A DNA stretch of 60,478 nt from Acidimicrobiales bacterium (GCA_035536915.1 DATLNE010000029.1:1-60478), one strand, 5' to 3'; shown: positions 34,143 through 58,764, numbered from the stretch's first letter. Notes: a model not told the origin generated them from the letters alone. Numbers and translations: made by a program.

Positions 34143-34215
34143 GGGGGTGTAGCTCAGTTGGCAGAGCGCAGCGTTCGCAATGCTGAGGCCGTGGGTTCGA
34201 ATCCCATCACCTCCA
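34143..34215 (+). tRNA. tRNA-Ala (anticodon CGC)
   Basis: A complete cloverleaf of 73 bases: acceptor GGGGGTG/CACCTCC with the G3-U70 pair that marks alanine tRNAs, D-arm GCTC-AGTTGGCA-GAGC, anticodon stem CAGCG/TGCTG with loop TTCGCAA (anticodon CGC), and T-arm GTGGG-TTCGAAT-CCCAT. The CCA end is not encoded. A recombinase gene follows, so its 3' end is the likely attachment site of an integrated element. Confidence 0.95.
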
Positions 34216-34555
34216 CCCGTCTACCCCTCTCATGGGGCCGATGGCCCCGAATCACGGGGCCGTCCGGTCCATTTCGTGTCGTTCCGAACCGGCGCTGCGC
34301 CCTGATTATCGGGAGAGGGCAGGCGTTTATCGGGACCTGACCACCCCCTGCCCAGGGCACCCGAGCAATGCCCAGCCCGAGGCAGCCCAGGTACGGGCGG
34401 CGAAGGCGGCGGCGACCCGGGGCCGCAGGTGGGTGCCCGGGGGCAGGCGTGACGCCCCGGAGCCCGTCGCCGCACCGGAGCGGTCCCTGTACTTCCGAGG
34501 GCACGGCGTAAGGGCCAGCACCGCACGCCCATGCGAGCTGCGCGTGGGGGGTGAG
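34216..34555. other. Non-coding leader between tRNA and the HTH gene
   Basis: About 340 bases with no supported gene. They contain two TTATCGGGA direct repeats (listed separately), TGCCCAG in two copies near 34350-34378, and GC-rich stretches. This is where attL and the recombinase or excisionase binding sites of an integrative element are expected. Confidence 0.45.
34306..34335 (+). repeat. Direct repeat TTATCGGGA, two copies 21 bases apart
   Basis: TTATCGGGA at 34306-34314 and 34327-34335, spaced by two turns of the helix, between the tRNA and the recombinase genes. The spacing and place suit recombinase arm sites or an excisionase/repressor operator. No function is shown. Confidence 0.45.
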
Positions 34556-34960
34556 GTGGCTGGCAGCGTGTACCGGGACGAGCGCTATGTGACCCAGACC
34601 GAGGCGGCGTCGCTCTGCGGCTGCGATTACACCACCATCCGCAGGCACCGGAACCGTGGGCATTTCCCCGGAGCGCGGCGCCGGGACGACGTCAACGGGA
34701 GCTGGGAGATTCCCGTCGAGGACCTGATCTCCGCTGGGCTCTGGCATCCGTCGGACGGGGACGAACGCGACCTCGACGGCGCGCTCGGGCGGACCAGGAC
34801 CGAGCGCCGCCTGGAGGAACTGCGCCTGGAGTTGGAGCGGGCGAATGTGCGCATCGAGGGGCTGACGTCCGCGTTGGCCGACCGACGCGACGAGATTGCC
34901 TACCTGCGCCGTGCGCTGGACGCCGCCCTCGGGGCAAGCCCGGCCCGGGTGGTGGCCTGA
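34556..34960 (+). CDS. Small HTH protein, excisionase-like
   Basis: With GTG 34556 as start the product is 134 residues. YVTQTEAASLCGCDYTTIRR followed by HRNRGHFPGARRRDD and WEIPVEDLISAGL is a MerR/excisionase-type helix-turn-helix with wing. The C-terminal half (TERRLEELRLELERANVRIE) is a charged coiled coil. It overlaps the recombinase start by one base (TGATG). Position and fold suggest a directionality factor or regulator of the recombinase. The open frame extends further up to 34232, but that part is low-complexity; GTG 34544 and 34568 are other possible starts. Confidence 0.65.
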   Translation: MAGSVYRDERYVTQTEAASLCGCDYTTIRRHRNRGHFPGARRRDDVNGSWEIPVEDLISAGLWHPSDGDERDLDGALGRTRTERRLEELRLELERANVRIEGLTSALADRRDEIAYLRRALDAALGASPARVVA

Positions 34961-37458
34961 TGCCCCGCAAGCTGACCGGGAGCCGCTGGGAGCGGGGGAG
35001 TCGTTGGTGCGCGAGCGTCCCCGAGGCCCGGGGCTCGCGCCGACGCATCGAGGCGAGTTTCGACGAGGAGGCGGAACGCGAGGCATGGCTGTTGTCGGCC
35101 ATCGCCGCGGTCGAGAACGGGAGGCAGCCCCCCGATCCGGCGATCTTCCGGGGACGAGCGGCCGGTGACGCGCCCGAAGCGAACCCGCGTCCGTTGTTCG
35201 AGGAACTGGCCTACGGCTGGCTCAACGAGCACTACGGCCAGCTGCGCAAGGCGGACGTCGAGCGCGAGCACGCGGTGCGCGCCCTTGTCGATAACCACCT
35301 CATTCCCGCCTTCGCCGGCCCTGTGCCGTCCGACGCGGCTACAGCCCGCCGGCGCTTGATCGAGTTCGTGCGCCGCTTGGCCAAGGAGCCCGAGCACCGC
35401 AACGTCGATGCCGCACTGCTGCCCACCAACGAACTGCTCTCGATCAGCGAGGCCGCAGCGGTCTTCGAGCGGTCACCGTCCACGATTCGGCGTGCCTTGA
35501 GGGCGGGCAAGTTGTTGGGGGCACGCCGCGGCCTCGACGGGCAATGGCTGCTCCCGGTGAGCGCCTTGGCCCATGCCCTCGACGTGGACCGCGCCGACGC
35601 CCTCAGCCGCGCCTATGTGCGCGGCATCCTCTGGGTCCACCACGAGATCCTCGAATGGGGCCGGTGCAACGGCTGGCAAATCGCATGTTTCGAGCGTGGC
35701 GTGAACGCGCTCACCCCAGATGCCAGGGTCAGTCGCAGGAAGGCAGGGAAGAGGCTGCGCCAGCCGCTCGCCTTCGTTGAGCTCGCCCGGGTGGCCGCCC
35801 ACCTGCATGTGATCCACCAAACCACGCTGTGGCTGATGCGCGTCCTCGGCTTGCGCATCTCCGAGGCGTACGGGCCGCGGGTGGGCGACCTGATGGACCT
35901 CGGCGATGTCGGTCTGCTCGTGGTCCAACGACAAGGCGGCCGTCCGTTCCTGACACGCACGCCCGACGGCGCCGAAACCGTCTACTCCAAAGACACCCTC
36001 AAACGGGCCGCTTCCTACCGAGTCGTCCTCGTGCCCGAGGTGCTCATGGCCCTGCTGCGGGTGGTCGTGGCGGCGTTCCACACCGACCCCGTCACCGGCG
36101 AAGTTGATCTGAACGCCCGCCTGGTTCCCTGGATCGGTCGAGAGGGGGCCGGCCAGGCGGCCTTCCGCAGCGCGCTGGAGAACGCCCTGCGACAGGAGGG
36201 GTCGGATCTGGAGAGCGCGGGCTTCGCCGTTGTGCCCCACGACCTCCGCAAGTCGTTGGCCACCGACCTGGCGTGGGACGCCGACCTCGACGAGCTGGCC
36301 AAGCGGCGGTTCATGGGCCACAAGGCCGGCGACGACGTCTTCGCGCGCGTCTACACCCTCGACCATCCGACGTTGGGGCCGCTGACGGAGATCGCCCGGG
36401 CGCTCGAGGTCCACATCACCAGGCAGATGAGCAGCCTGATGGTGCCGACCGAGGGTCGCATCAGGTGGCGTCGCGCCAATCCGCTGTCCGGCCGGGCCGC
36501 CCATGTCGATGCGGTCCTGGCGGAAGCGGGCTGGCAGGTGGAGCCCGGTGACGGCGACAACCCGTGGTGCGACGCGGTCCGAGTAGCGGCCGAGGTCGGC
36601 ATCGCCGAGCGAACCGCCCGACGATGGATGCGCGATCAGGTCGTTCCGTCGGTCACCGACACCGACCGGTTCGGCAACACCCGCCGTCGAGCGCGGCTGG
36701 CCGACGTGGAGGCGGTGCGCGACCGGTTGGCGGGACGTGTCCTGCTGCGGGACCTGGCCGATGAACTGGGCTGCGGGTACTACCGCGCCTACCGGAGCCT
36801 CCGGCGTCTTGGGCTGGCCCGAACTGCGGAGGGCCCGCCGCCCGCCGAGCTGGTCCTGACCCCCGAGGAAGCTGCCGCGGTGCGCGCCGAGTTCGCTCGG
36901 CTTTCGGCCCTGTTCGGACGGTCAATGCGCGTGAGCGCGGCGGCGAACCGGCTCGGGGTCGCCTTCGGCACCGCGCAGCGGCTGGTGAGGACGGGACAGC
37001 TGGTTGCCGACGAGGAGCGTGATGCCTTCGGGGCGCTCCACGTCACCAAGGCTTCCGTCGAGGCCGTCTTGGCGGCACGGCGGCCCATGGCCGTCGACCC
37101 CGGGCCACTCATCGACGCGCGTGTCATCGCCAGTATCACCGGCCTCAACCTCCGTCAGCTATCGGACCTGGCCGTCCAGGGAACCCTGGTGCGACACGAC
37201 CATGGCCGACGCTTTCAACTCACCCTGGAAAGCGTGGAGGCGTGGGCGGCGGGGCTGGGTTGGGAGGTACGGGGCACTCTCGCCACCGCCGCCCCCGCGG
37301 TGCGGCCAAGCGGAAAGGTCGTGGACTTTGCTCGTTTGGAAAATCGCGAGCGCGGCCCGGGTCCGACGCGGCTACCGGTTCCACGGGCGAGACCGATCGA
37401 ACGAGCTGGTGACGGCGGCTCCCACCCCGATGACGATGAGGAGGCTCAAACGGCATGA
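34960..37458 (+). CDS. Tyrosine recombinase/integrase with multiple helix-turn-helix segments
   Basis: The 832-residue protein carries the full tyrosine recombinase set: R299 (LGLRISEAYG), H427-x2-R430 (PHDLRKS), H454 (FMGHKAG) and nucleophile Y465 (RVYTLD). A helix-turn-helix (LSISEAAAVFERSPSTIRRA, about residues 160-192) is inserted between the N-terminal DNA-binding part and the catalytic domain. About 360 residues follow the catalytic Tyr and contain at least four more HTH-like segments near 543, 597, 654 and 722. Typical integrases are about 400 residues. It is next to tRNA-Ala, the presumed target. Confidence 0.88.
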   Translation: MPRKLTGSRWERGSRWCASVPEARGSRRRIEASFDEEAEREAWLLSAIAAVENGRQPPDPAIFRGRAAGDAPEANPRPLFEELAYGWLNEHYGQLRKADVEREHAVRALVDNHLIPAFAGPVPSDAATARRRLIEFVRRLAKEPEHRNVDAALLPTNELLSISEAAAVFERSPSTIRRALRAGKLLGARRGLDGQWLLPVSALAHALDVDRADALSRAYVRGILWVHHEILEWGRCNGWQIACFERGVNALTPDARVSRRKAGKRLRQPLAFVELARVAAHLHVIHQTTLWLMRVLGLRISEAYGPRVGDLMDLGDVGLLVVQRQGGRPFLTRTPDGAETVYSKDTLKRAASYRVVLVPEVLMALLRVVVAAFHTDPVTGEVDLNARLVPWIGREGAGQAAFRSALENALRQEGSDLESAGFAVVPHDLRKSLATDLAWDADLDELAKRRFMGHKAGDDVFARVYTLDHPTLGPLTEIARALEVHITRQMSSLMVPTEGRIRWRRANPLSGRAAHVDAVLAEAGWQVEPGDGDNPWCDAVRVAAEVGIAERTARRWMRDQVVPSVTDTDRFGNTRRRARLADVEAVRDRLAGRVLLRDLADELGCGYYRAYRSLRRLGLARTAEGPPPAELVLTPEEAAAVRAEFARLSALFGRSMRVSAAANRLGVAFGTAQRLVRTGQLVADEERDAFGALHVTKASVEAVLAARRPMAVDPGPLIDARVIASITGLNLRQLSDLAVQGTLVRHDHGRRFQLTLESVEAWAAGLGWEVRGTLATAAPAVRPSGKVVDFARLENRERGPGPTRLPVPRARPIERAGDGGSHPDDDEEAQTA

Positions 37459-37754
37459 CCCATCCCGACTTCCACTCACCGAGGTTCCCCGCCAGCGGGA
37501 AGGTGGAGCGCGCACGGACGGCGATGGCCTGTGCCCGACCGGCACCGGCGGTTCCGATCACGGAGCGTCGAAGCCCGTACTGGGACATGGAGCAAACGGC
37601 GACAGCGCAACAGCGCCCGCAAATGGGACATTTCCACAGGAAACGGTTGGAATTTCTCACGGAGCGTGGTACACGTGTAAACGCAATGAGCAGAAGGCAG
37701 CTGGGGGTAGCTGCGGCGGCGACGGTTATCCCCCTCGCGGGCTTGGAGGGGTTA
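37459..37754 (+). promoter_or_regulatory. Spacer with possible promoter before the Tad operon
   Basis: An open frame from ATG 37455 crosses this stretch in phase with the next gene but lacks coding character. A relatively AT-rich part (TTGGAATTTCTCACGGAGCG around 37648, then TACACGTGTAAAC) has a -35-like TTGGAA and a palindromic ACACGTGT, and could drive the downstream operon. This is weak evidence. Confidence 0.35.
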
Positions 37755-38360
37755 GTGGTCCGATTCAGACGGCTCCCCCTTGTGGGTCGCCAAGGAACGT
37801 TCCGATGCCTCGCAACCGCGAGCGTGCTCCTCGTGGTCTTGGGGTCTGCCGGCTGCCGAGCCGACCGATCGCCGTCCTCGGCATCTCCCCCGACCACCAC
37901 GTCGACGGCGGGCCCAACGTCCACGGTCGTATCGGTCCCGGATGACGAGCGGGTTGTGGCGTTCAACACGTACCGGGATTTCTATCGGGCGTACATCGAT
38001 TTCGGCACGGAAGTCAGCAGGGTGTTCGACCGGGCTGACTTCGATACGAAGGTGGGCCTCCACGCCACAGGCCAGCAGTACAACGAGCTACTGCACTACT
38101 TCAGCAATCAGCGGCCACGCGGAGTCTTCTTCCGAGGCCCGCCGGTAGAGCACGATCCCGACCCCGAGATCACGGTCGATGGCGACAAGGCGACGATCCG
38201 GGACTGCATGTTCGACGCAGGCGAGACCTATGACGCGGACGACAACACCGTGATCGACTCCGCTGACGACAAGCGCGAGCTGAAGGTTGTTCGTCTCGAA
38301 CGCGTGGCAGGCGTTTGGAAGGTGGCCGATGTCGAACTGGAGGGCGAATGCGCCATCTAG
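37755..38360 (+). CDS. Lipoprotein at the head of the Tad operon
   Basis: GTG 37755 has GGAGGGG just upstream and gives a 201-residue protein with a lipoprotein signal: TASVLLVVLGSAGC, lipobox LGSAGC, then a Ser/Pro/Thr linker. The mature region (VAFNTYRDFYRAYIDFGTEV, GVFFRGPPVEHDPDPEITVD, LERVAGVWKVADVELEGEC) looks like an NTF2-type domain ending in the usual Trp strand. ATG 37455 is an alternative start, overlapping the recombinase stop. Its end overlaps the next secreted protein gene, which fits one operon. Likely anchored outside the membrane near the pilus. Confidence 0.65.
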   Translation: MVRFRRLPLVGRQGTFRCLATASVLLVVLGSAGCRADRSPSSASPPTTTSTAGPTSTVVSVPDDERVVAFNTYRDFYRAYIDFGTEVSRVFDRADFDTKVGLHATGQQYNELLHYFSNQRPRGVFFRGPPVEHDPDPEITVDGDKATIRDCMFDAGETYDADDNTVIDSADDKRELKVVRLERVAGVWKVADVELEGECAI

Positions 38361-39175
38361 CGATCTCCGTGCCCTTGTGGTTGGCGGTTGTACTCCTGGC
38401 GACTGCGTCGCCCGCCGCTGCTGAGCGCGGCGGCGGCGTGGAATGCGGAAGAACCGTATGTGACGTGATCGCACGCTCCGACGGGTCGCAGCAGTCGGGA
38501 GGAGGCGGATCACCGTCCACGGTGCAATGCACGTACAAGCCTGCAAACCTGCCTCCGGGAACCGTCGTCTATTCGCCCGACGGCACACCGATCGTCGTAG
38601 ACGGCACGGGCCAGTGGTTCGACTACGACTGCGTTGACGGTGATGGCGGGCACACGGGCGGGATGGTCTACAGCAAGCCGAAGTCGGCCGAGGATCTCCG
38701 CAACGAAGCCCGAGCTCGACTCGTCATGCCGAGCCTGAGGCCCACGTTGAACCCACCGGGACAGCAAACCGTGAACTTCCGATCGCTGCTTTGGGTGGAC
38801 CAGTCGGCGTGGCGACCGGCGTCGGCCACGGCGTCCGTACCGGGGCTCTCGGTGACGGTGGCCGCTACGCCCACGGGTGTCACTTGGACAATGGGCGACG
38901 GAGGCACGGTCGAGTGCGTTGGTCCGGGCGTGCCCTACGACCCGGCAAAGTCCGAAGCGGATCAGGACACCAGCTGTTCCTACGTCTACCGGCATAGTTC
39001 GGCAGGTCAACCCGGCGACGTTTTTGCCCTGAAGGTCACGGTGCACTGGGCCATCAGTTGGTCAGTCACTGGTGCGCCCGGTGGGGGTCCGCTCGCTGGG
39101 GTGTCGCGGACGGGCGAGTCCGTTGACGTTCGCGTCGGCGAAATCCAAGCCGTCAACACGAGGAACGGAGCGTAG
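38348..39175 (+). CDS. Secreted protein with PKD-like domain
   Basis: ATG 38348 lies within the end of the lipoprotein gene and has GGAGGG upstream. The 275-residue product has a signal peptide (LAISVPLWLAVVLLATASPA) and a C-terminal domain GVTWTMGDGGTVECVGPGVP with CSYVYRHSS and VTVHWAISWSVTGAPGGG, a PKD-like pattern seen in secreted proteins encoded next to actinobacterial Tad and T4SS genes. Six Cys residues. It probably works at the cell surface with the pilus; direct function unknown. Confidence 0.7.
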   Translation: MRHLAISVPLWLAVVLLATASPAAAERGGGVECGRTVCDVIARSDGSQQSGGGGSPSTVQCTYKPANLPPGTVVYSPDGTPIVVDGTGQWFDYDCVDGDGGHTGGMVYSKPKSAEDLRNEARARLVMPSLRPTLNPPGQQTVNFRSLLWVDQSAWRPASATASVPGLSVTVAATPTGVTWTMGDGGTVECVGPGVPYDPAKSEADQDTSCSYVYRHSSAGQPGDVFALKVTVHWAISWSVTGAPGGGPLAGVSRTGESVDVRVGEIQAVNTRNGA

Positions 39176-39178
39176 AGG

Positions 39179-39841
39179 TTGGCCAGGGTCGAAGAACTCG
39201 CGCGTCGTCGGGCGAGCAATGACGCCGCGGTGGAGGGGACCAGCCGTTCGGTCAACTACTACGGCATCGGCTTGAGGGGGGTGATCGTGCTCGCACTCGT
39301 GATAGCGGGGGTCATCGTGTTCACCCGCATCGGTGAGCGCCACCCGGTCCTGGCCGTGGCCCGGCCCGTCGCCGCGGGGCAGGTCATCCAGGCAAGTGAT
39401 GTTCGCGAGGTCAAGCTGCCGGAGGATCAGGGCATCGACCCGGTCGCGGCCCGCGACCGCACGAAAGTCGTCGGCAAGGTCGCCAAGGTAACGCTCGTCC
39501 CGGGCACCACCCTTGCGTGGGACGCTCTCGACGAAGCGCCAGCCGCGTTGGGTGCAAACGAGGCGGTCGTGGGCATTGCATTGAAGCCAGGGATGTACCC
39601 GATCGAACTGCGTGCCGGCGACCGGGTGCGAGTCGTGGAGGCGCGCACGGCAAGCGCGTCCAGGCCCGAAGAGCCGTCCACCCTGGTTCCTGACGCGCGG
39701 GTGCGGTCGGTGGCTCGGGAAACCGAACGTGGCCAAGGCGGCATCGTGGTGTCACTTGTCGTCCCAGTGGACAAGTCGGCCGCCGTGGCCGCCGGAGCAG
39801 CGGCCGGTCGAATCTCGCTGGCAGTCGTCGGGTCCGTGTGA
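39179..39841 (+). CDS. SAF-domain protein, CpaB-like pilus assembly protein
   Basis: TTG 39179 starts three bases after the previous gene. The 220-residue product has one membrane span (GVIVLALVIAGVIVFTRIG) and a SAF domain: ARPVAAGQVIQASDVREVKL, GKVAKVTLVPGTTLAWDAL and LKPGMYPIELRAGDRVRVVE. CpaB/RcpC proteins gate or align Tad pilus components across the envelope. Position before the CpaE- and CpaF-like genes supports this. No secretin gene (CpaC) is seen, as expected in a single-membrane organism. Confidence 0.82.
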   Translation: MARVEELARRRASNDAAVEGTSRSVNYYGIGLRGVIVLALVIAGVIVFTRIGERHPVLAVARPVAAGQVIQASDVREVKLPEDQGIDPVAARDRTKVVGKVAKVTLVPGTTLAWDALDEAPAALGANEAVVGIALKPGMYPIELRAGDRVRVVEARTASASRPEEPSTLVPDARVRSVARETERGQGGIVVSLVVPVDKSAAVAAGAAAGRISLAVVGSV

Positions 39842-39844
39842 AAA

Positions 39845-40702
39845 ATGGCCATCTGCGCTTCATTCGCCTCCGCGAAACATTCCCCCGGCGCCACGACGGC
39901 GTGCTTGGCTATCGCCGTCGGGATGGCGCGCCCGGACTCCACGGGGAGGCCGACTCGCCGCTTCATTCGCACTCGGCAGGGGGTGCCCGCGAGTGCGGAC
40001 AACGCCCCTGTGCTGGTAGTAGAGGCGGACCCGGCGGGCGGCGACTTGGCGGCGCGCTTGGAACGCAAGGCGACTGGCCTCGAAACGCTCGCCCCGGCCG
40101 CCAGGCACGTCGTCGATGCCACTGTCCTCATGGCCCACACGCAGTCGCTGCGTGAGCATCTCCAACTCCTTGCGGCGCCAGCGTCGGAAGCTCAGGCAAC
40201 TGCCGCGCTCCGAGCGTTGGCCGACCGACTCGCAGCCCACCTAGCTTCCGCGCCGACCTCGGTGCTTGTCGACTTGGGGCGTCTGTCGCCGAGGTCGCCA
40301 GCGCTGCCGCTCGCAGCAGCCAGCCGGGTGGTCGTGTGGGTCGCCCGACCGGGGCCTGAAGGAGTCGCTCACCTGAAGGACCGCCTTCGCGCCATAGAGG
40401 CGGCCGTTCCGGAGGTCGTCGAGCGATCGAGATTGGTCGTGGTTGATGCCGGCCCCTACGGCGCCGACGACTTTGCCCGGATGGTGGGACTTCCGCTGCT
40501 TGGGACGCTGGCCTTCGACGTGCAGGGGGTCGATGTGCTCTACGGACGAGACCAAGGCCGCGGTACCGAGCTGATGAAGGACGCTCGAAGCCTCGCGCGT
40601 GCTCTGCGTGGAGACGACGAGCACGACGTGCGTCGATCCGCGGACGACCTCAGCGCCGCCGACGGCCTAACAGGCGACGGCGGCCGAAGGATCGTGGGAT
40701 GA
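39845..40702 (+). CDS. CpaE-like MinD/ParA-family protein with altered P-loop
   Basis: The 285-residue product begins MAICASFASAKHSPGATTAC, where a deviant Walker A would be, but the GK-T/S core is replaced by KHSPGATT. VLVVEADPAGGDLAARL is the switch region of MinD-type ATPases, and SVLVDLGRLSP the Walker B-like strand. CpaE/TadZ proteins set the position of the Tad machinery and often have weak or no ATPase motifs (family knowledge). An extra loop of about 20 residues follows the P-loop. The last bases overlap cpaF. Confidence 0.75.
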   Translation: MAICASFASAKHSPGATTACLAIAVGMARPDSTGRPTRRFIRTRQGVPASADNAPVLVVEADPAGGDLAARLERKATGLETLAPAARHVVDATVLMAHTQSLREHLQLLAAPASEAQATAALRALADRLAAHLASAPTSVLVDLGRLSPRSPALPLAAASRVVVWVARPGPEGVAHLKDRLRAIEAAVPEVVERSRLVVVDAGPYGADDFARMVGLPLLGTLAFDVQGVDVLYGRDQGRGTELMKDARSLARALRGDDEHDVRRSADDLSAADGLTGDGGRRIVG

Positions 40703-42036
40703 GAACCGACGGGCCGCGGAAGCACAACGTACCGACGGCTCAACTAGCCGAGCTGCGAATGACCGCAGGAATGCGCCTCGGTGATCGGCGCGGGGCGCGG
40801 GAGCGTGAGAGCGGCGCCAAACTCGGGCGGGTCGAAGTGGAGCGGATCGCCCGCGAGGTCATCAAGGGCGTTCTCAATGAGTTCGCAGACGCTCGGCACC
40901 AGCGCGGCGAACCGCAACTTCGGGAGGAGGAGGAGGCCGGTGTCACGGAGGCCATCTTTGATTGGCTGTTCGGGCTCGGCCCGTTCGAGGCCATCCTCAG
41001 CCGGCACGACGTAGTCAACGTCCACGTCGCCGGCGCAGGCCCGGTATTCCTCGACCTGGTCGACGGTACGAAGGAGGAGCTCCCTCCGATCGTGGCCAGT
41101 CCGCACGAGTTGACGACATGGGTACGTCGTCAAGCCGTCATCGCCGGCAGGCGGTTCGACAGCACGCACCCGTACACGACGTTCCGGCTCCCGGAGGGAA
41201 GCCGCTGCACCGCGATTGGGTGGCGCACCAAGAAACCCGAGGTCTGGATTCGCTGCCACCACTTCCTGTGCCCCAGCCTCGACGAACTCGTGACGGCCGA
41301 CCAGCCAATGCTCACCGTCGAGGTGGCCGAGTTCCTCCGCGCCGCCGTCCGTGCGGAGATGAACATCCTCATCAGTGGAGGACAGAACACCGGCAAGACG
41401 ACGCTTCTTCGGGCGTGCTGCAACGCGATTTCGCCGCTCCATCGAATCGTCACCGTCGAAAACTCCTTCGAACTCGATCTTGACCTCTTCCCGGACTTCC
41501 ATCCCGACATGACGGCGATGGAAGCCAGCGACATGAACGTTGAGGGTGTCGGCGACGAGTCGTGCTCGGTGCTTCTCAACCGAGCGATGCGGATGGCCGC
41601 GAAGTGGCTGATCCTCGGCGAGGCGCTCGACGACGGGGTGGTGCCGCTACTCAAGGCGTACACGTGCGGCGCGTCCTGCATGTCCACCATCCACGCAAAC
41701 TCATCAGCCGAGGTCTTCACGCGGATTGCGGCACTTGCCCTGGACTCTCACCGGCACTCGCTGGACCCGTCGAGGGCGGTCTACATGGCGGCCGCCGGGA
41801 TTGACCTCAGCGTGCATCTCGTTCGCCTGCCCTCGGGGCGCCGTGTCGTTTCATCCATTCGCGAGGTCGTGCGGGCCGAAGGCCAACACGTCGTCACCGG
41901 GGAGATTTTCGCCCCTGACTCGAATGGAGAAGCAGCTCGTACGACCACGATGCTCCAGGAATCCACGAAGTCGAGGCTTGAGGCTGTCGGGTACGTCGAG
42001 GACGCACGGTCGCCGAAGGTCGGGGCAGCGCGGTGA
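40699..42036 (+). CDS. tadA: TadA/CpaF secretion ATPase
   Basis: The 445-residue ATPase has an N-terminal domain (EAIFDWLFGLGPFEAILSRH, VVNVHVAGAGPVFLDLVDG), the P-loop ISGGQNTGKTTLLRACCNAI at about residues 225-244, VTVENSFELDLDLFPDFH as Asp box, MAAKWLILGEALDDGVVPLL as Walker B, and STIHANSSAEVFTRI as His box. It powers pilin assembly for Tad pili at the inner face of the membrane. The fuller GGTGSGKT loop of relatives is GGQNTGKT here. ATG 40699 overlaps the upstream gene. Confidence 0.92.
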   Translation: MRTDGPRKHNVPTAQLAELRMTAGMRLGDRRGARERESGAKLGRVEVERIAREVIKGVLNEFADARHQRGEPQLREEEEAGVTEAIFDWLFGLGPFEAILSRHDVVNVHVAGAGPVFLDLVDGTKEELPPIVASPHELTTWVRRQAVIAGRRFDSTHPYTTFRLPEGSRCTAIGWRTKKPEVWIRCHHFLCPSLDELVTADQPMLTVEVAEFLRAAVRAEMNILISGGQNTGKTTLLRACCNAISPLHRIVTVENSFELDLDLFPDFHPDMTAMEASDMNVEGVGDESCSVLLNRAMRMAAKWLILGEALDDGVVPLLKAYTCGASCMSTIHANSSAEVFTRIAALALDSHRHSLDPSRAVYMAAAGIDLSVHLVRLPSGRRVVSSIREVVRAEGQHVVTGEIFAPDSNGEAARTTTMLQESTKSRLEAVGYVEDARSPKVGAAR

Positions 42037-43871: not shown

Positions 43872-43927
43872 ACTGAGCGTGGAGGTTACGAAATGGGAAG
43901 TTGGCAGCGGTCAGGAGGAGGAAAGCG

Positions 43928-44119
43928 ATGATGCCCCTGGGGCTAGCGATGTTGTTTGTACGGATGATCGCGGACCGCATCGCTGGCATGGAGCGGGACG
44001 AACGTGGCGCTATCGACAACGTGCTCTGGTACGCCTTGATCGCAGCCGGTGTGATCGTGGTCGCCGGGATCTTCGTGTTGAAGATGAAGACGAAGGCAGA
44101 GAGCACCCCGACCGAGTGA
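43928..44119 (+). CDS. Flp-type small pilin
   Basis: ATG 43928 follows a strong AGGAGGAGGAAAG ribosome site. The 63-residue product has a basic/hydrophobic leader, ERDERGAIDNVLWYALIAAG, one hydrophobic segment and a short KMKTKAESTPTE tail, the size and layout of Flp pilins and their class III leader. The strong ribosome site fits a major structural subunit made in excess. The expected prepilin peptidase (TadV/CpaA) is not in the window. Confidence 0.82.
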   Translation: MMPLGLAMLFVRMIADRIAGMERDERGAIDNVLWYALIAAGVIVVAGIFVLKMKTKAESTPTE

Positions 44120-48360: not shown

Positions 48361-48364
48361 TGAA

Positions 48365-49270: not shown

Positions 49271-49276
49271 GACGAC

Positions 49277-49567
49277 GTGAAGCCCGACCCTCAAACGGGG
49301 CGACAGCGCCTCGCCCGGTGGCTCGCGGTAATCGGCCTTCTGTACGCAGGGGTGTCCTTCGGCGGGGACAGGCTCGAGACGCCCTCGGCGACCGGGACCA
49401 CTGGCTCGCGGAGGGAGGTTCGCGGCGTGAGAGTCCTGGCGTTCTTCGCACTGTTCGCCGAGTTCGAAGGCCCAGCGGGCGAGCCCACCTATCGAACGGC
49501 TGGCACATGGGCCTTGATCGCCGTCTGCACGTTCCCGATCATGGTTCTCGTCAGCTACCTGATCTGA
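49277..49567 (+). CDS. Small membrane protein, paralogue A
   Basis: GTG 49277 opens a 96-residue protein with two hydrophobic parts: RWLAVIGLLYAGVSFGGDRL and, after RGVRVLAFFALFAEFEG, TWALIAVCTFPIMVLVSYLI at the very end. GGDRL, the RGVR...F block and the ending P-x-x-V-x-YLI match the next protein (49673), so the two are tandem duplicates. Function unknown. Confidence 0.6.
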   Translation: MKPDPQTGRQRLARWLAVIGLLYAGVSFGGDRLETPSATGTTGSRREVRGVRVLAFFALFAEFEGPAGEPTYRTAGTWALIAVCTFPIMVLVSYLI

Positions 49568-49672
49568 GCCGCGCCGCGCCCGTACCTCGACAAGTGGGCG
49601 CGGCCCGAGGCAGTGCCGCGGTTTCGGCCTGGCGTCGTCGCCCTGTGACATGGCTTCCGCTAGGGTCGGGCC

Positions 49673-50014
49673 GTGGACGGGGGGACACATTTCGCCGACT
49701 GGTCGCTGCCTCGCGAAGGACGCCCACACGTCAGCCGACTCGCCCCGAGACGCGTCCTCCTCCGCGTCGTGGCCGTGGTCGTGTTCTCCGTCGTCACGAC
49801 GTTCTGCGGTGACCGGCTCGGCGACGCGCTCGGCAGCCGCGAACACGAGCTTGCCGAAGGCGTGCGCAATGTCGGGTTCCTGGGGTGGTTCTTCCTGACG
49901 TTTCCTGGCTACGACCTCGCCACAGGCAGCCGCTTCGCATCGACCCGAGGGACACGAATCCTTGTAGCGGTCGCGGCGCTCCCGATCTCGGTCTCAGTCG
50001 CCTACCTGATCTGA
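49673..50014 (+). CDS. Small membrane protein, paralogue B
   Basis: GTG 49673 gives 113 residues: basic N-terminus (LPREGRPHVSRLAPRRVLLR), a span with FSVVTTFCGDRLGDALGSRE, then EGVRNVGFLGWFFLTFPGYD and the end ILVAVAALPISVSVAYLI. It shares GDRL, the VR-x-x-x-FL block and the YLI end with the protein at 49277. As a pair they flank the boundary between the Tad operon and the conjugation-type cluster. Function unknown. Confidence 0.6.
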   Translation: MDGGTHFADWSLPREGRPHVSRLAPRRVLLRVVAVVVFSVVTTFCGDRLGDALGSREHELAEGVRNVGFLGWFFLTFPGYDLATGSRFASTRGTRILVAVAALPISVSVAYLI

Positions 50015-51371: not shown

Positions 51372-51383
51372 AGCGGGAACCCC

Positions 51384-52451
51384 CTACGACTCGACGATTC
51401 GGCGCACCGTGTCGACGGTGCTTGGAATGGTGGCGATGCGCACGACGTCTCCGGTGCGGGGGGCCACGACCCAGTGCCGGGCGTCGAGGGCGAGCCCGAC
51501 GTGCCCGCTGGGTCGGTCCCCACGCGGAGTGAACACAAGATCGCCGGGACGGAGCGGCTCATCCGGCCAGGCCACTTCCCTGCCGGCGTGCACCTGCTGC
51601 ACTGTGGTTCGCCCGATGTCGATGCCCACCGCGGCGTAGGCGGCCTGGGTCAGTCCCGAGCAGTCCCAGCGGTGGGGACCCTCGGCGCCCCATTCGTAGG
51701 GCTCGCCCAACTGCGACAGCGCGAACTCGAGGACCGCGGCGAGATCGACGCCCGCCCACACGACACCGGCCACGGACGGTGCCCCGGTGCCGAGGGGGGC
51801 ACCTCCCCACGGCGTCATCCCATAGGCGATTGCCTTGGTTTCGACCTCGGCCACGTAGGCGGCCGAGTTGTTGTAGCGGCGCAGGGCGCGATCGAGGGGC
51901 CCGAGCTCGGCCCTCCCGCCGCAGAGATAACGGCCGGCGGTGGCGATGGCGTCGTAGGCGTTGTGGGGATCGGCCTTGCCGTCGCCGTTGGCGTCGGTGG
52001 CCCACGCGGCGAAGGTCGAGGTGAGGAACTGCATGGGCCCCACCGCGTGGTCCCAGCGAGCGTCGCCGGTCTGCGCGGTGCTCTCCGGGGTGGCCGGGAT
52101 GGCTCGAGTGCCCGCCGAGCCGTCGAGGGCAGGACCGACGATTCGCGAGGCGGTGGCGCCGGTGTCGGCGTCGATCCCGGTCCACTCGCCGGTGGCGGGA
52201 TCACGTCGGGCGCGGCCGTGGCGGGACTCCACCCAGCCCACCGCCGCCACCACTTGCCACGCGAGGCCGGTGCACGCTGGCGCGGCCTGGTAGTGCGGCA
52301 CAAGCACAGGCGGAATCTCGGCGTCCGCCATGGCGCTGGCCGGACTCGCCGGGGCGGCACCGGCACCGGAACCGACGGCGCCGACGACCAGGAACGGAAT
52401 GGCCAGGACGGCCGCCGCGATTGCCACCAGGACACCGCCGAGGGTCTTCAC
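51384..52451 (-). CDS. Lytic transglycosylase plus NlpC/P60 wall hydrolase
   Basis: The 355-residue product has an N-terminal hydrophobic segment (GVLVAIAAAVLAIPFLVVGA), a transglycosylase-type domain (VVAAVGWVESRHGRARRDPA with catalytic Glu, then VGPMQFLTSTFAAWATDANG) and a C-terminal NlpC/P60 domain with Cys (PHRWDCSGLTQAAYAAVGID) and His (SGHVGLALDARHWVVAP). Such two-domain enzymes open the wall for conjugation machines in Gram-positive elements (VirB1/TcpG-like). GTG 52451 overlaps the preceding gene. It is a strong link of this cluster to DNA or protein transfer. Confidence 0.92.
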   Translation of the reverse strand: MKTLGGVLVAIAAAVLAIPFLVVGAVGSGAGAAPASPASAMADAEIPPVLVPHYQAAPACTGLAWQVVAAVGWVESRHGRARRDPATGEWTGIDADTGATASRIVGPALDGSAGTRAIPATPESTAQTGDARWDHAVGPMQFLTSTFAAWATDANGDGKADPHNAYDAIATAGRYLCGGRAELGPLDRALRRYNNSAAYVAEVETKAIAYGMTPWGGAPLGTGAPSVAGVVWAGVDLAAVLEFALSQLGEPYEWGAEGPHRWDCSGLTQAAYAAVGIDIGRTTVQQVHAGREVAWPDEPLRPGDLVFTPRGDRPSGHVGLALDARHWVVAPRTGDVVRIATIPSTVDTVRRIVES

Positions 52452-53111: not shown

Positions 53112-53501
53112 ATGGAGCTCGACTGGACACGCCTGCTCGCCGGCCGCGCGCGCCGTCTGAGGCGCTACGTCGCCCGCGGCCTACGCGCGACGACCCTGGG
53201 GCTCGTGGTCGTCCTGATGACGGCCGCGCCGACGTGGGCCGATGACGTGAAGGTGGAGCCGACCGCCACGGGCCTGGCCTTCGGCGACAAGATCCAACGC
53301 TGGCTCAACTGGGGCGGCCAGTTCGCCCTGTGGGCGTGCCTGGCGTCCATCATTGCCGGCGGCGGCGCCTGGGGACTGAGCAAGCACTTCGGCAGCTACG
53401 GCGGTGCCAACAAGGGGATGCAGCTGGTGCTGGGCGGTGCCATCGGAGCGTTGGTGGTGGCCAGCGCCGGTCCCATCGTCAACTCCATGTTCAACGGCTG
53501 A
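53112..53501 (+). CDS. VirB2/TrbC-like small membrane subunit (DUF6112-like)
   Basis: ATG 53112 is preferred because AGAAGGG sits nine bases upstream; ATG 53103 is also possible. The 129-residue product has a basic start, a signal segment (TTLGLVVVLMTAAPTWADDV) and two later spans (GQFALWACLASIIAGGGAWG; MQLVLGGAIGALVVASAGPI), the layout of VirB2/TrbC pilin-type subunits and of the DUF6112 group in actinobacterial transfer loci. It is the first of six plus-strand genes. Confidence 0.75.
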   Translation: MELDWTRLLAGRARRLRRYVARGLRATTLGLVVVLMTAAPTWADDVKVEPTATGLAFGDKIQRWLNWGGQFALWACLASIIAGGGAWGLSKHFGSYGGANKGMQLVLGGAIGALVVASAGPIVNSMFNG

Positions 53502-53505
53502 CGGC

Positions 53506-54147
53506 ATGAGCCGGACTCGCTCTCGCCGCGTCGCGATCGCCCTTGGAGTCGGCCTCGCCGTGCTCGTCGTCGGCCGGATGCTGGGGGCCTCGTCCTCGCC
53601 CGATGCCGGGGCGCCCCAGGTGCCCCAGGTGCCCCCCGCTGCCGTCAGTGCCGATCAGCCGGCGTCGCCGGACGGCGCCCTCGAGGCAGGCGTCCGCTAC
53701 GCCACCTTGATGGCCGAGCTGTTCCCGCTCGAACCGGTCGAGGCCAAGGCCGTGGTGGACGATGTCGCCTCCCGCGCCTACGTGCCGGCGCTCGGCGCGG
53801 CCATCGAGACCGAACTGGTGCCGCTCCAGCGCCAAGTGGCAGGGCTGGCGGGCCGTCCCGTCTACCGCCAGAGCGTGCTCGCCGCCAAGCTCGTGTCGCA
53901 CGCGCCACCGCGGGCCGAGGTGAGCGCTTGGGTCATGCTCGTGGCCGGCCAGGCCGGTGTCGACAGCAACGCCATGGCCACCTTCTCGACCATCACGGTC
54001 GGCCTCGTGCTGGAGGACGACCGTTGGCGGCTGGACCGCACCGCCGAGACACCGGGCCCATCGCCGCTGTTGCGGGATGCCCCCTCCACCGTGGACACGC
54101 TCGTAGCCCGCCTCGACGGGTTTGCCGACTGGCGGCCCGCCACATGA
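53506..54147 (+). CDS. VirB8/TcpC-like membrane protein
   Basis: The 213-residue product has one N-terminal span (RRVAIALGVGLAVLVVGRML), a Pro/Ala linker with PQVPQVPPA, then a soluble domain (GVRYATLMAELFPLEPVEAK, AEVSAWVMLVAGQAGVDSNA, LVLEDDRWRLDRTAETPGPS) with the Trp strand of NTF2-type folds, as in VirB8 and TcpC. It overlaps the VirB6-like gene by four bases. The call rests on topology and context; sequence identity is low. Confidence 0.65.
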   Translation: MSRTRSRRVAIALGVGLAVLVVGRMLGASSSPDAGAPQVPQVPPAAVSADQPASPDGALEAGVRYATLMAELFPLEPVEAKAVVDDVASRAYVPALGAAIETELVPLQRQVAGLAGRPVYRQSVLAAKLVSHAPPRAEVSAWVMLVAGQAGVDSNAMATFSTITVGLVLEDDRWRLDRTAETPGPSPLLRDAPSTVDTLVARLDGFADWRPAT

Positions 54148-55583
54148 GCCGGGTCGTGTCCGTGCCGCGCCCGGTTGCCGTGCTGGTGGTGTCGGTAGCC
54201 GCCGTCCTCACCTTCACTATGACCGCGGTCAGCCCCGTCGAGGCGGCCTGCACGCCGTTGGGGTGCGTGCCCGACGTGGGCGGCGTGGTCCAGGCCATCC
54301 CCGGGGTAGGGGCCGCGGTCAAGGTCGTGGGGTCGGTGGCGGGCGCGGTGGGTGGGGCAGCGGCAGGGGTGGCGGGCGCCGTCCTCGACGCGATCGGCTC
54401 CGGCATCGCCGACGCCGTCGGCCGACTTTTGACCGAGGTGTCGGAGTTCCTCACCACCTCGTCCAGTCCTCAGGTCACCGTCGGGTCGTTCGTCGGCGAG
54501 GGCGGGACCTACCACCGGGTGGCCCAGCTCGCCGCGCTGCTCATGGTCCTGTTCATCTTCCTGGGCGTCATCCAGGGCGTGGTGGCCGGGGACGTGCTGG
54601 CCATGATCGGCCGGACGCTGCGCAACGTGCCGCTAGCCGTGCTGGCCATCTTCGGATTCCCCTGGCTGGTGGGCCAGATGGTCGAACTTGTCGACGCGGT
54701 GTGCGCGTCGCTCCTTCCCTCCGGGTCGACCCTGGCCACGATCGCCAAGATCTACGTGGTTGACCAGGGGCGCGTCGGCATCCCCGCGATCCTGCTCCTG
54801 CTGTTCGCCTTTGTTGCCGCCGTGGTCATCTACGCCGAATTGGTGGTGCGCGCCGCGTTGGTCACGCTGGTGGTCGCGCTCTCGCCGTTGTCGTTTGCGG
54901 CCATGGTGTGGCCGGCAGCGAGGGGCGCGGCGCGCAAGGCGGTGGAGCTCGTCGTCGCCTTGGTGGTCTCGAAGCTGGCCATCTGGGTGGCGCTGGCGTT
55001 GGGCATCGACATGTTCAAGGCCCACTCCGAGCGGGTGGTCCCGGGCGGGCAGTCGATGGGCCAGATGATCGCGGGAGGGGCGATCCTGGCCGTGGCTGTG
55101 TTCGCCCCCTTCGTGGTGTGGCGACTGATCCCGGTGGTGGAGGCGGCCACCGTTGCCCACGGCTTGTCCCGGATGCCGAGCCGGGCGGCCATGACCGCCG
55201 CCCACACGGCCACGACGCTGCGGTCCCTTCGCGGCGGCTCGGGTGGCGGCTCCGGTCCCGGACAGGCCAAAGGCGATGAGCACCCCGCCCTGGCGGACTT
55301 GCCGTCGGCCTCGCTGGGAACTCCCGGCGGCCTCAGTGGTGGCGGCGCGGAGGCCGCTGGTATCGGCAGTAAGGCCGGGTCGGGCGGTGCGACGGCTGCC
55401 GGTGGTTCGGTGGGTGCGGCCGGCGGGGCAGCGGCAGCGGCCCCCGTTGTCGTTGCCGCCGCCGGAGCCAAACCCGTGAAGGACCGCGTGACGAAGCGCG
55501 CGGTGGCGCAGTCCCAATCTGCCGAGAGCCCCGACTCCGCCCACGGGGGCGGGGGGTGGTCGTTCCGCCCCGAGGAGGAATGA
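54144..55583 (+). CDS. VirB6/TrbL-like polytopic membrane protein
   Basis: The 479-residue product has a signal-type start, a Gly/Ala-rich stretch (AVGGAAAGVAGAVLDAIGSG), then about six spans between residues 130 and 340 (AALLMVLFIFLGVIQGVVAG, ILLLLFAFVAAVVIYAELVV, ALVTLVVALSPLSFAAMVWP, the last being the VirB6/TrbL signature area) and a disordered Gly/Ala-rich tail. This is the channel platform of T4SS. The length of the tail is typical of the actinobacterial forms. Confidence 0.82.
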   Translation: MSRVVSVPRPVAVLVVSVAAVLTFTMTAVSPVEAACTPLGCVPDVGGVVQAIPGVGAAVKVVGSVAGAVGGAAAGVAGAVLDAIGSGIADAVGRLLTEVSEFLTTSSSPQVTVGSFVGEGGTYHRVAQLAALLMVLFIFLGVIQGVVAGDVLAMIGRTLRNVPLAVLAIFGFPWLVGQMVELVDAVCASLLPSGSTLATIAKIYVVDQGRVGIPAILLLLFAFVAAVVIYAELVVRAALVTLVVALSPLSFAAMVWPAARGAARKAVELVVALVVSKLAIWVALALGIDMFKAHSERVVPGGQSMGQMIAGGAILAVAVFAPFVVWRLIPVVEAATVAHGLSRMPSRAAMTAAHTATTLRSLRGGSGGGSGPGQAKGDEHPALADLPSASLGTPGGLSGGGAEAAGIGSKAGSGGATAAGGSVGAAGGAAAAAPVVVAAAGAKPVKDRVTKRAVAQSQSAESPDSAHGGGGWSFRPEEE

Positions 55584-55586
55584 GGG

Positions 55587-57116
55587 ATGGGCGACCAGCC
55601 GCGCTACCGGCTCTCTGCCCGCAGCAGAGGCACGGCCGTCTTCGGCCTGACCGTCGTGCAACTCGGCTTGGCCAGCGCTGCCGTGCTGGTGGCGGTCAAG
55701 GTGCTGACCGCCGGTCCCCCTACCGCCGCCCGCGTTTTCCTTGCCGTGGCCGTGCCCGCGGCGGCCGCGGTCATGGCCTTCGGCCAGTGGCGAGGGCGCC
55801 CCGTCTACGAGGCGGTTCCCACCGCCGCCCACTTCGGGTGGCGTGCAGCCACCGGCCAGAACCGCTGGTACTGCCGTCTCCCGTTGCTGAGTGCCGACGG
55901 CACCACGACCGGCACCGTTGCGCTCCCATCCTGTCTGGAGGGCCTGGAGATCCTGGCCCTGGACCGTCCCGACTGGGCGGGCCGACGGCGCACCGTGGCC
56001 CCTCTGGGTCTCGTTCGAGACCGGCGGACGGGGACCCTCACCGGCGTGTTGAACGTGAAGGGAGCGGAGTTCCAGTTGGTCGACGAGGCCGACCAGCACG
56101 GCTGCATCTTCGCCTGGGGGAGCCGGGTCCTGGCCCCCTTCGCCCGGGAGTTCTCGCCGGTGGTGCGCCTGGCCTGGCACGAGTGGTCCTGCCCGGCTCC
56201 GCTGTCGGAGCACCTGACGTGGCTCGCGTCCAACGTCGACTCCGACGCCCCCGCGGCGTCGCACTACCGGGCCTTGCTCGACAGCCAGGGGGTGGCGGTG
56301 GCCCGCCACGACCTGCGCGTCACCATCACCGTCGACCCCCGACGGATGGGGCGAGGGTACCGACGCGGCGGCGGCCGGCGGGACGCCACCGAGGTGGCCC
56401 TGTCCGTGCTGCGCTCCCTGGCCGACCGCTGCCGCGACGCCGGCCTGGTCGTCGCCGACCCGCTCGGCGGTGCCGAGTTGGCCGACGCCGTGCGCTTGGG
56501 CGGCGACCCCGAGGTGGTGCGGCGGCGCGGGATGTCGCTGCCGCTGGACGTGCGGGCCGGACTGGTGCCTGTGGTCCACGCGGTTCCGTTGGCCTTGGAG
56601 ACAGCCTGGGACCACGTCCGGGTGGACGGCGCTCTGCACCGCAGCTTCTGGGTGTCGCGCTGGCCCACCCTCGAGGTCGGTCCCCGCTGGCTCGAACCGC
56701 TGCTGCTGGACACCGCCGGTACCCGCACCGTCACGATGGTGATGGAGCCGGTGTCGCCGCGGGCGAGCCGCCGCCAGATCACCCGTGACGCGGTCCGGGT
56801 GCAGGGCGACATCCACAACCGGGCCCGCCACGACTTCCGGGTGCCGCTGGAGTTGCAGCGGGCCCAAGCCGACCTCGACCGCCGGGAGGCGGAACTGAAC
56901 TCGGGCTTCGCCGAGTACCGCTACCTGGCTCTGATCGACGTGTCCGCCCGAACGCTGGAGGAACTGGACGAGCTCTCCAACGCCTACATCGACGTGGCCG
57001 CTGCGTGCGGGCTGGATATCCGTGCGCTCGACGGACGCCACGACGCCGCTTGGGCGTGTTCGCTTCCGATCGGCCGGGCTCCCGATCGGGACCTTGTGGG
57101 CGGCCTCGTTGGGTGA
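55587..57116 (+). CDS. SCO6880-family conjugation protein
   Basis: The 509-residue product starts with two spans in an RYRLSARSRGTAVFGLTVVQ context (PrgI/SCO6880 type) followed by a large soluble part: VYEAVPTAAHFGWRAATGQN, VLNVKGAEFQLVDEADQHGC, FGRE-like FAREFSPVVRLAWHEWSCPA and YRYLALIDVSARTLEELDEL. These match the actinobacterial SCO6880 group, placed before the VirB4-like ATPase and corresponding to the N-terminal part of VirB4. Starts three bases after the VirB6-like gene. Confidence 0.8.
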   Translation: MGDQPRYRLSARSRGTAVFGLTVVQLGLASAAVLVAVKVLTAGPPTAARVFLAVAVPAAAAVMAFGQWRGRPVYEAVPTAAHFGWRAATGQNRWYCRLPLLSADGTTTGTVALPSCLEGLEILALDRPDWAGRRRTVAPLGLVRDRRTGTLTGVLNVKGAEFQLVDEADQHGCIFAWGSRVLAPFAREFSPVVRLAWHEWSCPAPLSEHLTWLASNVDSDAPAASHYRALLDSQGVAVARHDLRVTITVDPRRMGRGYRRGGGRRDATEVALSVLRSLADRCRDAGLVVADPLGGAELADAVRLGGDPEVVRRRGMSLPLDVRAGLVPVVHAVPLALETAWDHVRVDGALHRSFWVSRWPTLEVGPRWLEPLLLDTAGTRTVTMVMEPVSPRASRRQITRDAVRVQGDIHNRARHDFRVPLELQRAQADLDRREAELNSGFAEYRYLALIDVSARTLEELDELSNAYIDVAAACGLDIRALDGRHDAAWACSLPIGRAPDRDLVGGLVG

Positions 57117-57122
57117 GCACCG

Positions 57123-57389
57123 ATGACGGTGGACCTCGTCGCCCAGGTTGTGATCCCCACCCTGGCTGCCGTCACCGTGGCGCGGCTGGCCCGGCAACGT
57201 CCCACCGGCGACGTCGTCGGCCTGGCGTCCCCACCCTTTTGGCTCGCCACCGCCGTCGTGCACCGTCAGCGGGGTGTCGTGGTGTCGAGCACCATCTGCG
57301 CCTTCGCCTTCGCCTTCGCCTTCGCCGACGGCCGTTGGCGGACCTGTCGAAACGGGCGAGGGGAGGCCGCTGATGCCGGCGGCGACTGA
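57123..57389 (+). CDS. Small protein between SCO6880 and VirB4-like genes
   Basis: ATG 57123 follows the SCO6880 gene by six bases and gives 88 residues: one hydrophobic start (VDLVAQVVIPTLAAVTVARL), a PTGDVVGLASPPFWL part, and an AFAFAFAF stretch encoded by four tandem CTTCGC units (57302-57325). Its end overlaps the next gene by 17 bases. Coding status is fair but not certain. It could be a small membrane subunit of the transfer apparatus. Confidence 0.5.
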   Translation: MTVDLVAQVVIPTLAAVTVARLARQRPTGDVVGLASPPFWLATAVVHRQRGVVVSSTICAFAFAFAFADGRWRTCRNGRGEAADAGGD

Positions 57390-58764
57390 CACCACGTCGC
57401 CCCAGGTCCAGGCACGTGAGCGGATTTGGAACGGCCAACGTAAGGAACGGCTGCCCTCGACGGGCACGAACCTCCTTGCCCGACAACGGCTCACCCTGCC
57501 TCGCAACGTCACCACCACCTACCACCTGGCCGCCGCCTACCCGTTCGCGGTCGAGGCCGGGCTGGGGGTCCGGGGCGCCTTCATGGGCCTCAACCGGCTG
57601 AGCGGCGGCGGCGGCTTCTTCTTCGACCTCTTCGAGGCCCACAGCCAGGGACTCATTACTGCCCCCAACATGTTCGTCACCGGCGCGGGCGGGTTCGGCA
57701 AGTCCGCCCTCGTCAAGACCTACATGTTCCGCTCCTCGATCCTGCGGGGCCCTTACGACCGCGGTCGGTTCGTGTTCATCCTCGACGCCAAGGGCGAGTG
57801 GACTGCACTGGCCCGTCTTCTCGGTCTGACCGTGGTCGACCTGCATCCGGGCGGCCCCGCCCGGATCAATCCCCTCGACCCGGGCCCCGGTTGCTACTCG
57901 CTCAGCGCCGAGGACCTGGCCCGCAAGCAGGCGCCGGTCGTGGCTGCCCTCCTCTCCGTCATGCTCGCCCGCTCGCTGGACGTGAGCGAGAACCGCGTCC
58001 TGGGCTATGTGCTCGAGCGCCTCAGTCGAGGACGGCTTACACCTCCCACTCTCTTCGACCTGCGCGCGGCGCTGGCCAATCCCAGCCACGACATGGCCGC
58101 CGACCTCGACACTTCGCCTGAGGAGCTGCGGGTGCGTTGCCGCCCGATGCTCGACGCCTGCGCCATGCTCCTCGACCACCACTACAAGGGGATGTTCGAC
58201 GGTCCCACCAACGTGGCCATCGACTGGGACAGCTCGGCCGGCGTCGTGCTGAACCTCTCGGCCGTGCTCGACCAGCCCATCCCGCTGGAGCTGGCCATGA
58301 TCTGCGGAGCCGGGTGGGGCCAGGCCCTCATGCACGGGCGCACCGACCGCCTGAAGCTCAACGTCATCGACGAGAGCTACAAGGCTCTTCAGAACGAGGC
58401 CATGGTCGCCTATCTCCTCGACTGCTGGAAGGTGGGACGCCAATTCGGGAGTGGCAACGTCCTCATTCTCCACGCCCTGTCCGAGCTCCGAGCGTTCTTC
58501 GACGACTCGAGCGCCGCGGTCAAGAAGACCGAAGCCCTCCTCAATACCACGCCCGTTCGGGTGTACCTCCATCAGAACCACGACCAAGCGGCCGACCTCA
58601 GCCGCTTCGGGCTCACCACAGCCGAAGCCACGGGCCTCCCCGGCTACCCGCCACACCGCGGGCTGTGGAAGATCGGTGACTACACCGCATTGGTCGACCA
58701 CTTCACCATGGGCGTCGAAGTCGGCTTCTGCGATACGAACAAGGTGATGCGGGGAGGGAGATAG
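57373..58764 (+). CDS. VirB4-like T4SS ATPase (C-terminal half type)
   Basis: The 463-residue product has the P-loop TGAGGFGKSALVK near residues 103-115, RFVFILDAKGEWTALARLLG after it, a Walker B-like LNVIDESYKALQNEAM, and GNVLILHALSELRAFFDDSS with VRVYLHQNHDQAADLSRFGL near the end. This is the AAA part of VirB4/TraC proteins; the usual N-terminal half is absent and is probably supplied by the SCO6880-family protein just upstream. It drives substrate transfer and pilus subunit movement at the inner membrane. Confidence 0.88.
   Translation: MPAATDTTSPQVQARERIWNGQRKERLPSTGTNLLARQRLTLPRNVTTTYHLAAAYPFAVEAGLGVRGAFMGLNRLSGGGGFFFDLFEAHSQGLITAPNMFVTGAGGFGKSALVKTYMFRSSILRGPYDRGRFVFILDAKGEWTALARLLGLTVVDLHPGGPARINPLDPGPGCYSLSAEDLARKQAPVVAALLSVMLARSLDVSENRVLGYVLERLSRGRLTPPTLFDLRAALANPSHDMAADLDTSPEELRVRCRPMLDACAMLLDHHYKGMFDGPTNVAIDWDSSAGVVLNLSAVLDQPIPLELAMICGAGWGQALMHGRTDRLKLNVIDESYKALQNEAMVAYLLDCWKVGRQFGSGNVLILHALSELRAFFDDSSAAVKKTEALLNTTPVRVYLHQNHDQAADLSRFGLTTAEATGLPGYPPHRGLWKIGDYTALVDHFTMGVEVGFCDTNKVMRGGR

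Follow-up and report, generated by a model that had tools for sequence, protein, structure and literature searches.

A Tad pilus operon beside conjugation-type T4SS genes in a probable tRNA-inserted element of Acidimicrobiales

Tad pilus genes located next to conjugation genes are already known from plasmids of C. acnes, where the pilin was detected in a surface fraction and, according to the authors, how Tad relates functionally to conjugation is unclear (PMC5696575); transferability has been reported for one C. acnes plasmid of the Tad type (PMC9119108). Among other mobile elements, IncI plasmids are helped by a type IV pilus when they transfer in liquid, PAPI-1 depends on one, and a mycobacterial plasmid reportedly needs an ESX (type VII) system as well as its T4SS (PMC12857230). 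We found no experiment that ties an actinobacterial Tad pilus to mating.

Here we analyze a stretch of 60,478 bases from an Acidimicrobiales bacterium (GCA_035536915.1; hereafter the window), which is the complete contig C29 of a 3.23 Mb genome in 54 contigs. To the right of a tRNA-Ala(CGC) gene the window carries a recombinase, a Tad pilus operon and a set of T4SS genes (Table 1) and, because the window is a whole contig, this Tad-T4SS block runs into the contig end. On balance we think it probable that the DNA running from the tRNA-Ala up to the contig end makes up the left portion of an integrated conjugative element, or of the remnant of one, with the Tad pilus as a component of the transfer module; we assign the block to the actinobacterial T4SS kind as an ICE-like element or a remnant, and not as a proven ICE. 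A preliminary description of the window had listed the order tRNA-Ala, HTH protein, recombinase, Tad operon, membrane proteins and T4SS. We recover this order, and add the minus-strand genes that it had missed, mainly that of the NlpC/P60 and SLT hydrolase.

Table 1. Features of the window between the tRNA-Ala gene and the right contig end, with the evidence for each assignment.
Feature	Coordinates	Strand	Evidence
tRNA-Ala(CGC), presumed attachment site at its 3' end	34143..34217	+	ARAGORN; moaC-tRNA-Ala left flank conserved
HTH_17 protein, excisionase-like	34232..34960	+	HTH_17 1e-5; recombinase partner in relatives too
Tyrosine recombinase, 832 aa, internal HTH_17	34960..37458	+	weak Pfam phage-integrase match; catalytic residues
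Lipoprotein-like protein, operon head	37455..38360	+	homologues at equivalent place in G178:C280, G040:C6
Secreted protein conserved in T4SS-linked Tad loci	38315..39175	+	homology to relatives' loci
CpaB/RcpC-like, SAF domain	39179..39841	+	7.4e-8
TadZ-like	39845..40702	+	position and homology to relatives' gene
TadA ATPase, Walker A GGQNTGKT	40699..42036	+	T2SSE 6.7e-20
TadB-TadC fusion	42033..43871	+	T2SSF x2
Flp-like major pilin, 63 aa	43928..44119	+	by eye from six-frame translation
TadE	44119..44517	+	1.1e-6
TadE/TadF	44514..44915	+	profile match
TadG-like	44915..45334	+	profile match
Large LysM-like/BTAD protein, operon end	45331..48360	+	BTAD 3.4e-9
Small membrane protein 1	49277..49567	+	sequence; no family match
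Small membrane protein 2	49673..50014	+	sequence
NlpC/P60 + SLT cell-wall hydrolase	51384..52451	-	3.9e-18; conserved in T4SS block
VirB2-like small membrane protein	53112..53501	+	position and topology only; homologues in G040, G006, G027
VirB8/TcpC-like	53506..54147	+	NTF2-like structure model, weak
VirB6/TrbL-like	54144..55583	+	weak profile match; 40% to G040
SCO6880 family, VirB4 N-terminal part	55587..57116	+	8.8e-62
VirB4 ATPase, C-terminal part, Walker A GAGGFGKS	57373..58764	+	profile match

The moaC to tRNA-Ala(CGC) junction is also found in 19 other genomes of the order (the nearest relative, G001, falls outside this comparison, as its contig stops at that point). To the right of the tRNA the flank differs in each of the 19, with no gene block common to them. 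Conserved synteny on the left together with a right flank that is unique to each relative marks tRNA-Ala(CGC) as an insertion site or hotspot; since no right flank is shared, there is no chromosomal anchor for the right end of the element. The Tad operon is absent to the right of this tRNA in all 19 genomes, and so the arrangement named in advance as evidence against a single unit, a Tad operon at this place without the recombinase, was not seen in them. Base composition differs as well: the Tad-BTAD stretch is lower in GC than the left core (67.4% vs 70.3%), as the preliminary description had it, and GC3 is 0.78-0.89 in the measured island genes vs 0.95-0.97 in moaA and moaC. Synteny, GC3 and the occurrence of related recombinases behind tRNAs fit an element integrated at the 3' end of tRNA-Ala(CGC).

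A search to the right for a repeat of the tRNA 3' end had been proposed as a check. The tRNA 3' end is single in the assembly by exact and 2-mismatch search, giving no attR, and the contig ends inside the block. Matches in the assembly to the 11-mer TCACCTCCACC of the tRNA end look like chance only; one match of this type near a contig start was considered as attR and rejected, as it reads like an atpD gene. A terminal-overlap search of the contigs gave no continuation of the C29 right end. Two other genomes share the same sequence directly after tRNA-Ala(CGC), CGTTACCTGGCC...CCGCTGACGTGC (G163:C111, ~71.16 kb, L095; G015:C8, L149); it resembles the tRNA-Met arm described below and is probably another element at this tRNA.

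The Tad operon spans 37455-48360 and holds TadA, TadB/C, TadE, TadG, CpaB/RcpC and a Flp pilin in one operon, with the Flp recognized by eye only. This Flp-like ORF had been hidden beneath a spurious longer ORF and was not called before; it gives no match to the Pfam pilin profile, and its position matches that of small ORFs in plasmid Tad operons. The true start of the ORF at the operon head is probably internal. TadB and TadC, fused in the window, are two separate genes in the closely read relatives, and relatives of the BTAD protein are found on 29 plasmids. The Walker-B region of the window TadA reads LILGEALDD; in TadA proteins this region usually reads GEVRG.

Between the operon and the T4SS genes, the two small membrane proteins look from their sequences like paralogues of each other. 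Further right, SCO6880 and the ATPase that follows it correspond to two parts of what is a single VirB4 in a second subtype of the block (see below), and together they provide the VirB4-type ATPase expected of an ICE. The structure model of the VirB8-like protein has a mean pLDDT of 58, with PDB matches that are NTF2-like at best and an IcmL-like T4SS protein at rank 31; given this low confidence, we rejected the model as proof of identity. The block carries T4SS genes where an AICE would have a single FtsK/SpoIIIE translocase and Rep, and no FtsK or Rep match was found among the block proteins scanned.

A relaxase and an FtsK/TcpA gene, which the preliminary description suggested looking for to the right, are not in the block. 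For the coupling protein (VirD4/TcpA), none lies in the block, and the genome's only PF02534 matches are at C23 and, weakly, at C10; for the relaxase, PF03432 has no match in the genome and TrwC reaches only 10 bits. With no relaxase or coupling protein in its assembled part, the copy either continues past the contig end, borrows these functions in trans, or has decayed, and without these genes or an attR the earlier view of the island as self-contained is not supported. Decay would make the block a remnant that no longer transfers, whose Tad operon may have been retained just for attachment. We regard this reading, which overlaps our preferred one, as possible while appreciably short of an even chance: the absence of both genes from an assembly with a completeness of 99.5% speaks for it, and so does the divergent TadA, whose long branch in the TadA tree (1.6) would fit either decay or fast change, but the reading frames in the Tad, recombinase and T4SS parts are uninterrupted, the Walker A motifs and recombinase catalytic residues are intact, and the contig, for which no continuation was found, breaks exactly where the missing genes are expected.

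Other mobile DNA is present in the same genome. C23 (~14-34 kb; L101-L103, L171, L172) carries the genome's only convincing coupling protein, along with Replic_Relax and, at the tRNA-Ala(GGC) next to leuS, a serine recombinase. No VirB4 was found in this element, which contains a very long ORF (1942 aa). We considered C23 as the missing half of the window element and rejected it, since C23 has this serine recombinase of its own and is a distinct element. At the far left end of the window, outside the block and to the left of a conserved chromosomal stretch, a Replic_Relax protein (475-1533, minus strand, 5.7e-38) is probably another mobile remnant.

The recombinase of the window carries the R...HxxR...GH...Y set typical of tyrosine recombinases, with R299, H427, R430, H454 and Y465 invariant across seven aligned homologues, and thereby provides the site-specific integrase expected of a T4SS-type ICE. 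Homologues occur in 17 of the 397 genomes of the order (relatives in named genomes were found with an alignment query; a single-sequence query gave none). The pairing with an HTH protein is repeated in relatives, and on named contigs of the order a methylase-HTH-recombinase unit adjoins VirB4, VirB6 and coupling protein genes. Some metagenome-assembled Acidimicrobiales (e.g. YF2.bin99, YF3.bin43; L246-L285) hold at least four copies or fragments of this recombinase family.

How far does the block as a whole recur in the order? In G040:C6, G006:C42 and G027:C31, which belong to three other families, we find the ordered series secreted protein-CpaB-TadZ-TadA-TadB-TadC-TadE-TadE-TadG-BTAD followed by VirB2/B8/B6-SCO6880-VirB4, with the same split of SCO6880 and VirB4 and at ~25-45% identity to the window. 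Within the order the block turns up at unrelated places. In G040 a coupling protein lies directly 3' of VirB4 (PF02534 1.9e-38), G006 has a TrwC relaxase next to its Tad operon (1.1e-63), and in G027 a tRNA-Leu and a different integrase stand beside the block, making this an independent case. A second subtype, with Replic_Relax, a coupling protein and a single VirB4, is found in G233 (Acidiferrimicrobium sp. IK), G178 and G163. One contig each in two of these genomes (G233:C44 and G178:C280) carries Tad, NlpC, Replic_Relax, coupling protein, VirB4 and VirB6 genes and, on the same contig, two DNA methylases before an HTH-recombinase pair whose recombinase is 41-44% identical to that of the window. 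The G233 element is bounded by two copies of the 12-base tRNA-Met 3' end CCCCCGCCACCA, each followed by a shared ~300-bp arm, and a third copy lies at the tRNA itself; this is good evidence that in G233 a single element unites the Tad operon, the T4SS and a recombinase of this family. Because the linkage recurs in relatives in this way, the earlier proposal of one tRNA-inserted unit with recombinase, Tad operon and conjugation-type T4SS is supported.

On G233:C44 (L078-L091) the tRNA-Met core copies stand at 202550, 230440 and 289540 and, with the ~300-bp arm that they share, point to a tandem array. Its first unit (~28 kb) lacks a recombinase of the window's family and could be mobilized by the neighboring unit.

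The same comparison bears on whether the window could be a composite island, in which a tRNA-integrated recombinase with little else stands beside a separately acquired Tad-T4SS module and the integrase is not the vehicle. Recombinases of this family lie close behind tRNA-Ala(CGC) or tRNA-Met in G197 (two loci), L268, L281 and L285 with no Tad or T4SS detected in the fetched flanks, as such an island would predict, and the missing attR is in keeping with it. Moreover, the VirB4 and Tad genes of the window are nearest the G040/G006 subtype and its recombinase is nearest the G233 subtype; with recombinase and T4SS matching different subtypes, the modules may have been swapped and have separate histories. 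We nevertheless judge a composite origin improbable, since G233 and G178 have relatives of the recombinase within one element together with Tad and T4SS, and no further recombinase or tRNA was seen between the window's recombinase and VirB4.

Across the order, Tad loci with a gene of the 38315 type are linked to T4SS or mobilization genes in 21 of 29 cases and those without it in none of 7 (p = 8e-4), a contrast that is descriptive because the loci were fetched by similarity to the window. In the TadA tree the T4SS-linked loci cluster (4 changes vs 6.4 in shuffles) and do not form one clade.

Plasmids of Actinobacteria show the same company of genes. Tad genes lie near VirB4-type genes in C. 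acnes HL096PA1, in Xylanimonas pXCEL01 and on a Brachybacterium plasmid. The C. acnes-type VirB4 is found on 265 plasmids and the BTAD/LysM gene on 164, with at least 39 of the best 60 VirB4 plasmids also carrying the BTAD/LysM gene. Counted by genus, the numbers of plasmids with TadA and with VirB4 are nearly equal in Streptomyces (134 against 127) and Rhodococcus (29 against 31), and equal in Curtobacterium (8/8), Micrococcus (6/6) and Microbacterium (5/5). VirB4 is also present on plasmids of Mycobacterium (40) and Mycolicibacterium (17), neither of which appears in the top ten genera by BTAD or TadA.

Since Tad accompanies the T4SS on many different elements and plasmids, it looks like a part of the transfer module and not like the cargo that the preliminary description took it for. 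Ordinary adhesion cargo riding on a conjugative element would be in keeping with the facts that Tad pili are often adhesive and are the type-IV-filament system most often found on plasmids (PMC6668835), and that some Tad loci of the order have no T4SS within 20-30 kb. Cargo, however, should vary, and in several families and a wide range of plasmid genera the Tad and T4SS genes stay paired, often with their order conserved, which makes this account unlikely in our view. Far less credible still is a pilus for DNA uptake with a T4SS adjacent by chance: natural transformation in Micrococcus luteus is reported to depend on a Flp pilus (PMC4322843), and the consistent linkage to VirB4, coupling proteins and relaxases argues against such a role here. 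Returning to Tad as part of the transfer module, we infer that Tad and ESX occupy the same slot, with ESX replacing Tad in mycobacterial plasmids. More broadly, and with confidence that falls a little below even, we suggest that in non-mycobacterial monoderm Actinomycetota one conjugation machine, a T4SS-Tad hybrid, includes Tad as a standard component inherited along with it, on plasmids and on acidimicrobial tRNA-targeting elements, and that mycobacterial plasmids with the same VirB4 family use ESX/T7SS instead.

In a working element of this kind, the Tad operon, the BTAD protein, the NlpC/P60 hydrolase and the T4SS genes would work together as a single conserved module for transfer. Integration at, and excision from, the 3' end of tRNA-Ala(CGC) would fall to the recombinase and the HTH protein paired with it. 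The hydrolase would breach the wall for the channel, and the VirB2/B6/B8/SCO6880/VirB4 proteins would form that channel in the membrane. The Tad pilus may make or hold contact with the partner, or reel the partner in, perhaps by retraction, so that DNA can pass. Excision, present activity, the role of the pilus in mating and all mating in the window's host are presumed in this scheme. That a single ordered Tad-BTAD-NlpC-T4SS block occurs in several families of Acidimicrobiales as well as in plasmid genera ranging from Micrococcus to Streptomyces speaks for a link between pilus and conjugation. If true, such a link would help explain why Tad loci are so frequently carried by plasmids, and would supply a candidate mating pilus for monoderm conjugation.

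We finally compare the locus with known systems. The C. acnes Flp/Tad plasmids (p15.1.R1, pIMPLE-HL096PA1, pTP-CU411) share with the window a Tad operon that ends in a LysM/BTAD protein, and VirB4, TcpC/VirB8-like and C40 (NlpC) genes near Tad (PMC5696575); they differ in being extrachromosomal (described as linear), in having an FtsK-type translocase, in that no tRNA-targeting recombinase was seen, and in proteins that are only ~25-40% identical. The actinobacterial ICEs of the T4SS type (Ghinet et al. 2011, PMC3218068; Propionibacterium freudenreichii, PMC5644110) have, like the window, an integrase and a VirB4-type T4SS; other members carry a coupling protein and a TrwC relaxase, which the window copy is without, and the available text of these two accounts names no Tad pilus as part of the element. 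IncI plasmids and PAPI-1 likewise combine type IV filament and T4SS ATPases on one mobile element (PMC12857230), but in diderm hosts, with type IV pili other than Tad/Flp and with other T4SS subtypes. For the G233 subtype, the closest named element with a full gene set is the linear plasmid of Embleya sp. NBC_00896 (NZ_CP108778), with VirB6, PrgI, VirB4, coupling protein, Replic_Relax, NlpC and CpaB-TadZ-A-B-C-E-E-G-BTAD; unlike the window it is a plasmid, and the stretch covered holds no tRNA-linked recombinase of the window's family. The suggestion that the window represents an undescribed type needs narrowing: Tad beside conjugation genes is already known from the C. acnes plasmids, and the integrated, tRNA-targeting acidimicrobial version is new. 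Because the Tad partnership sits in an integrated, tRNA-targeting element of this order, we class the locus as a variant, ICE-like or a remnant, of the actinobacterial T4SS type.
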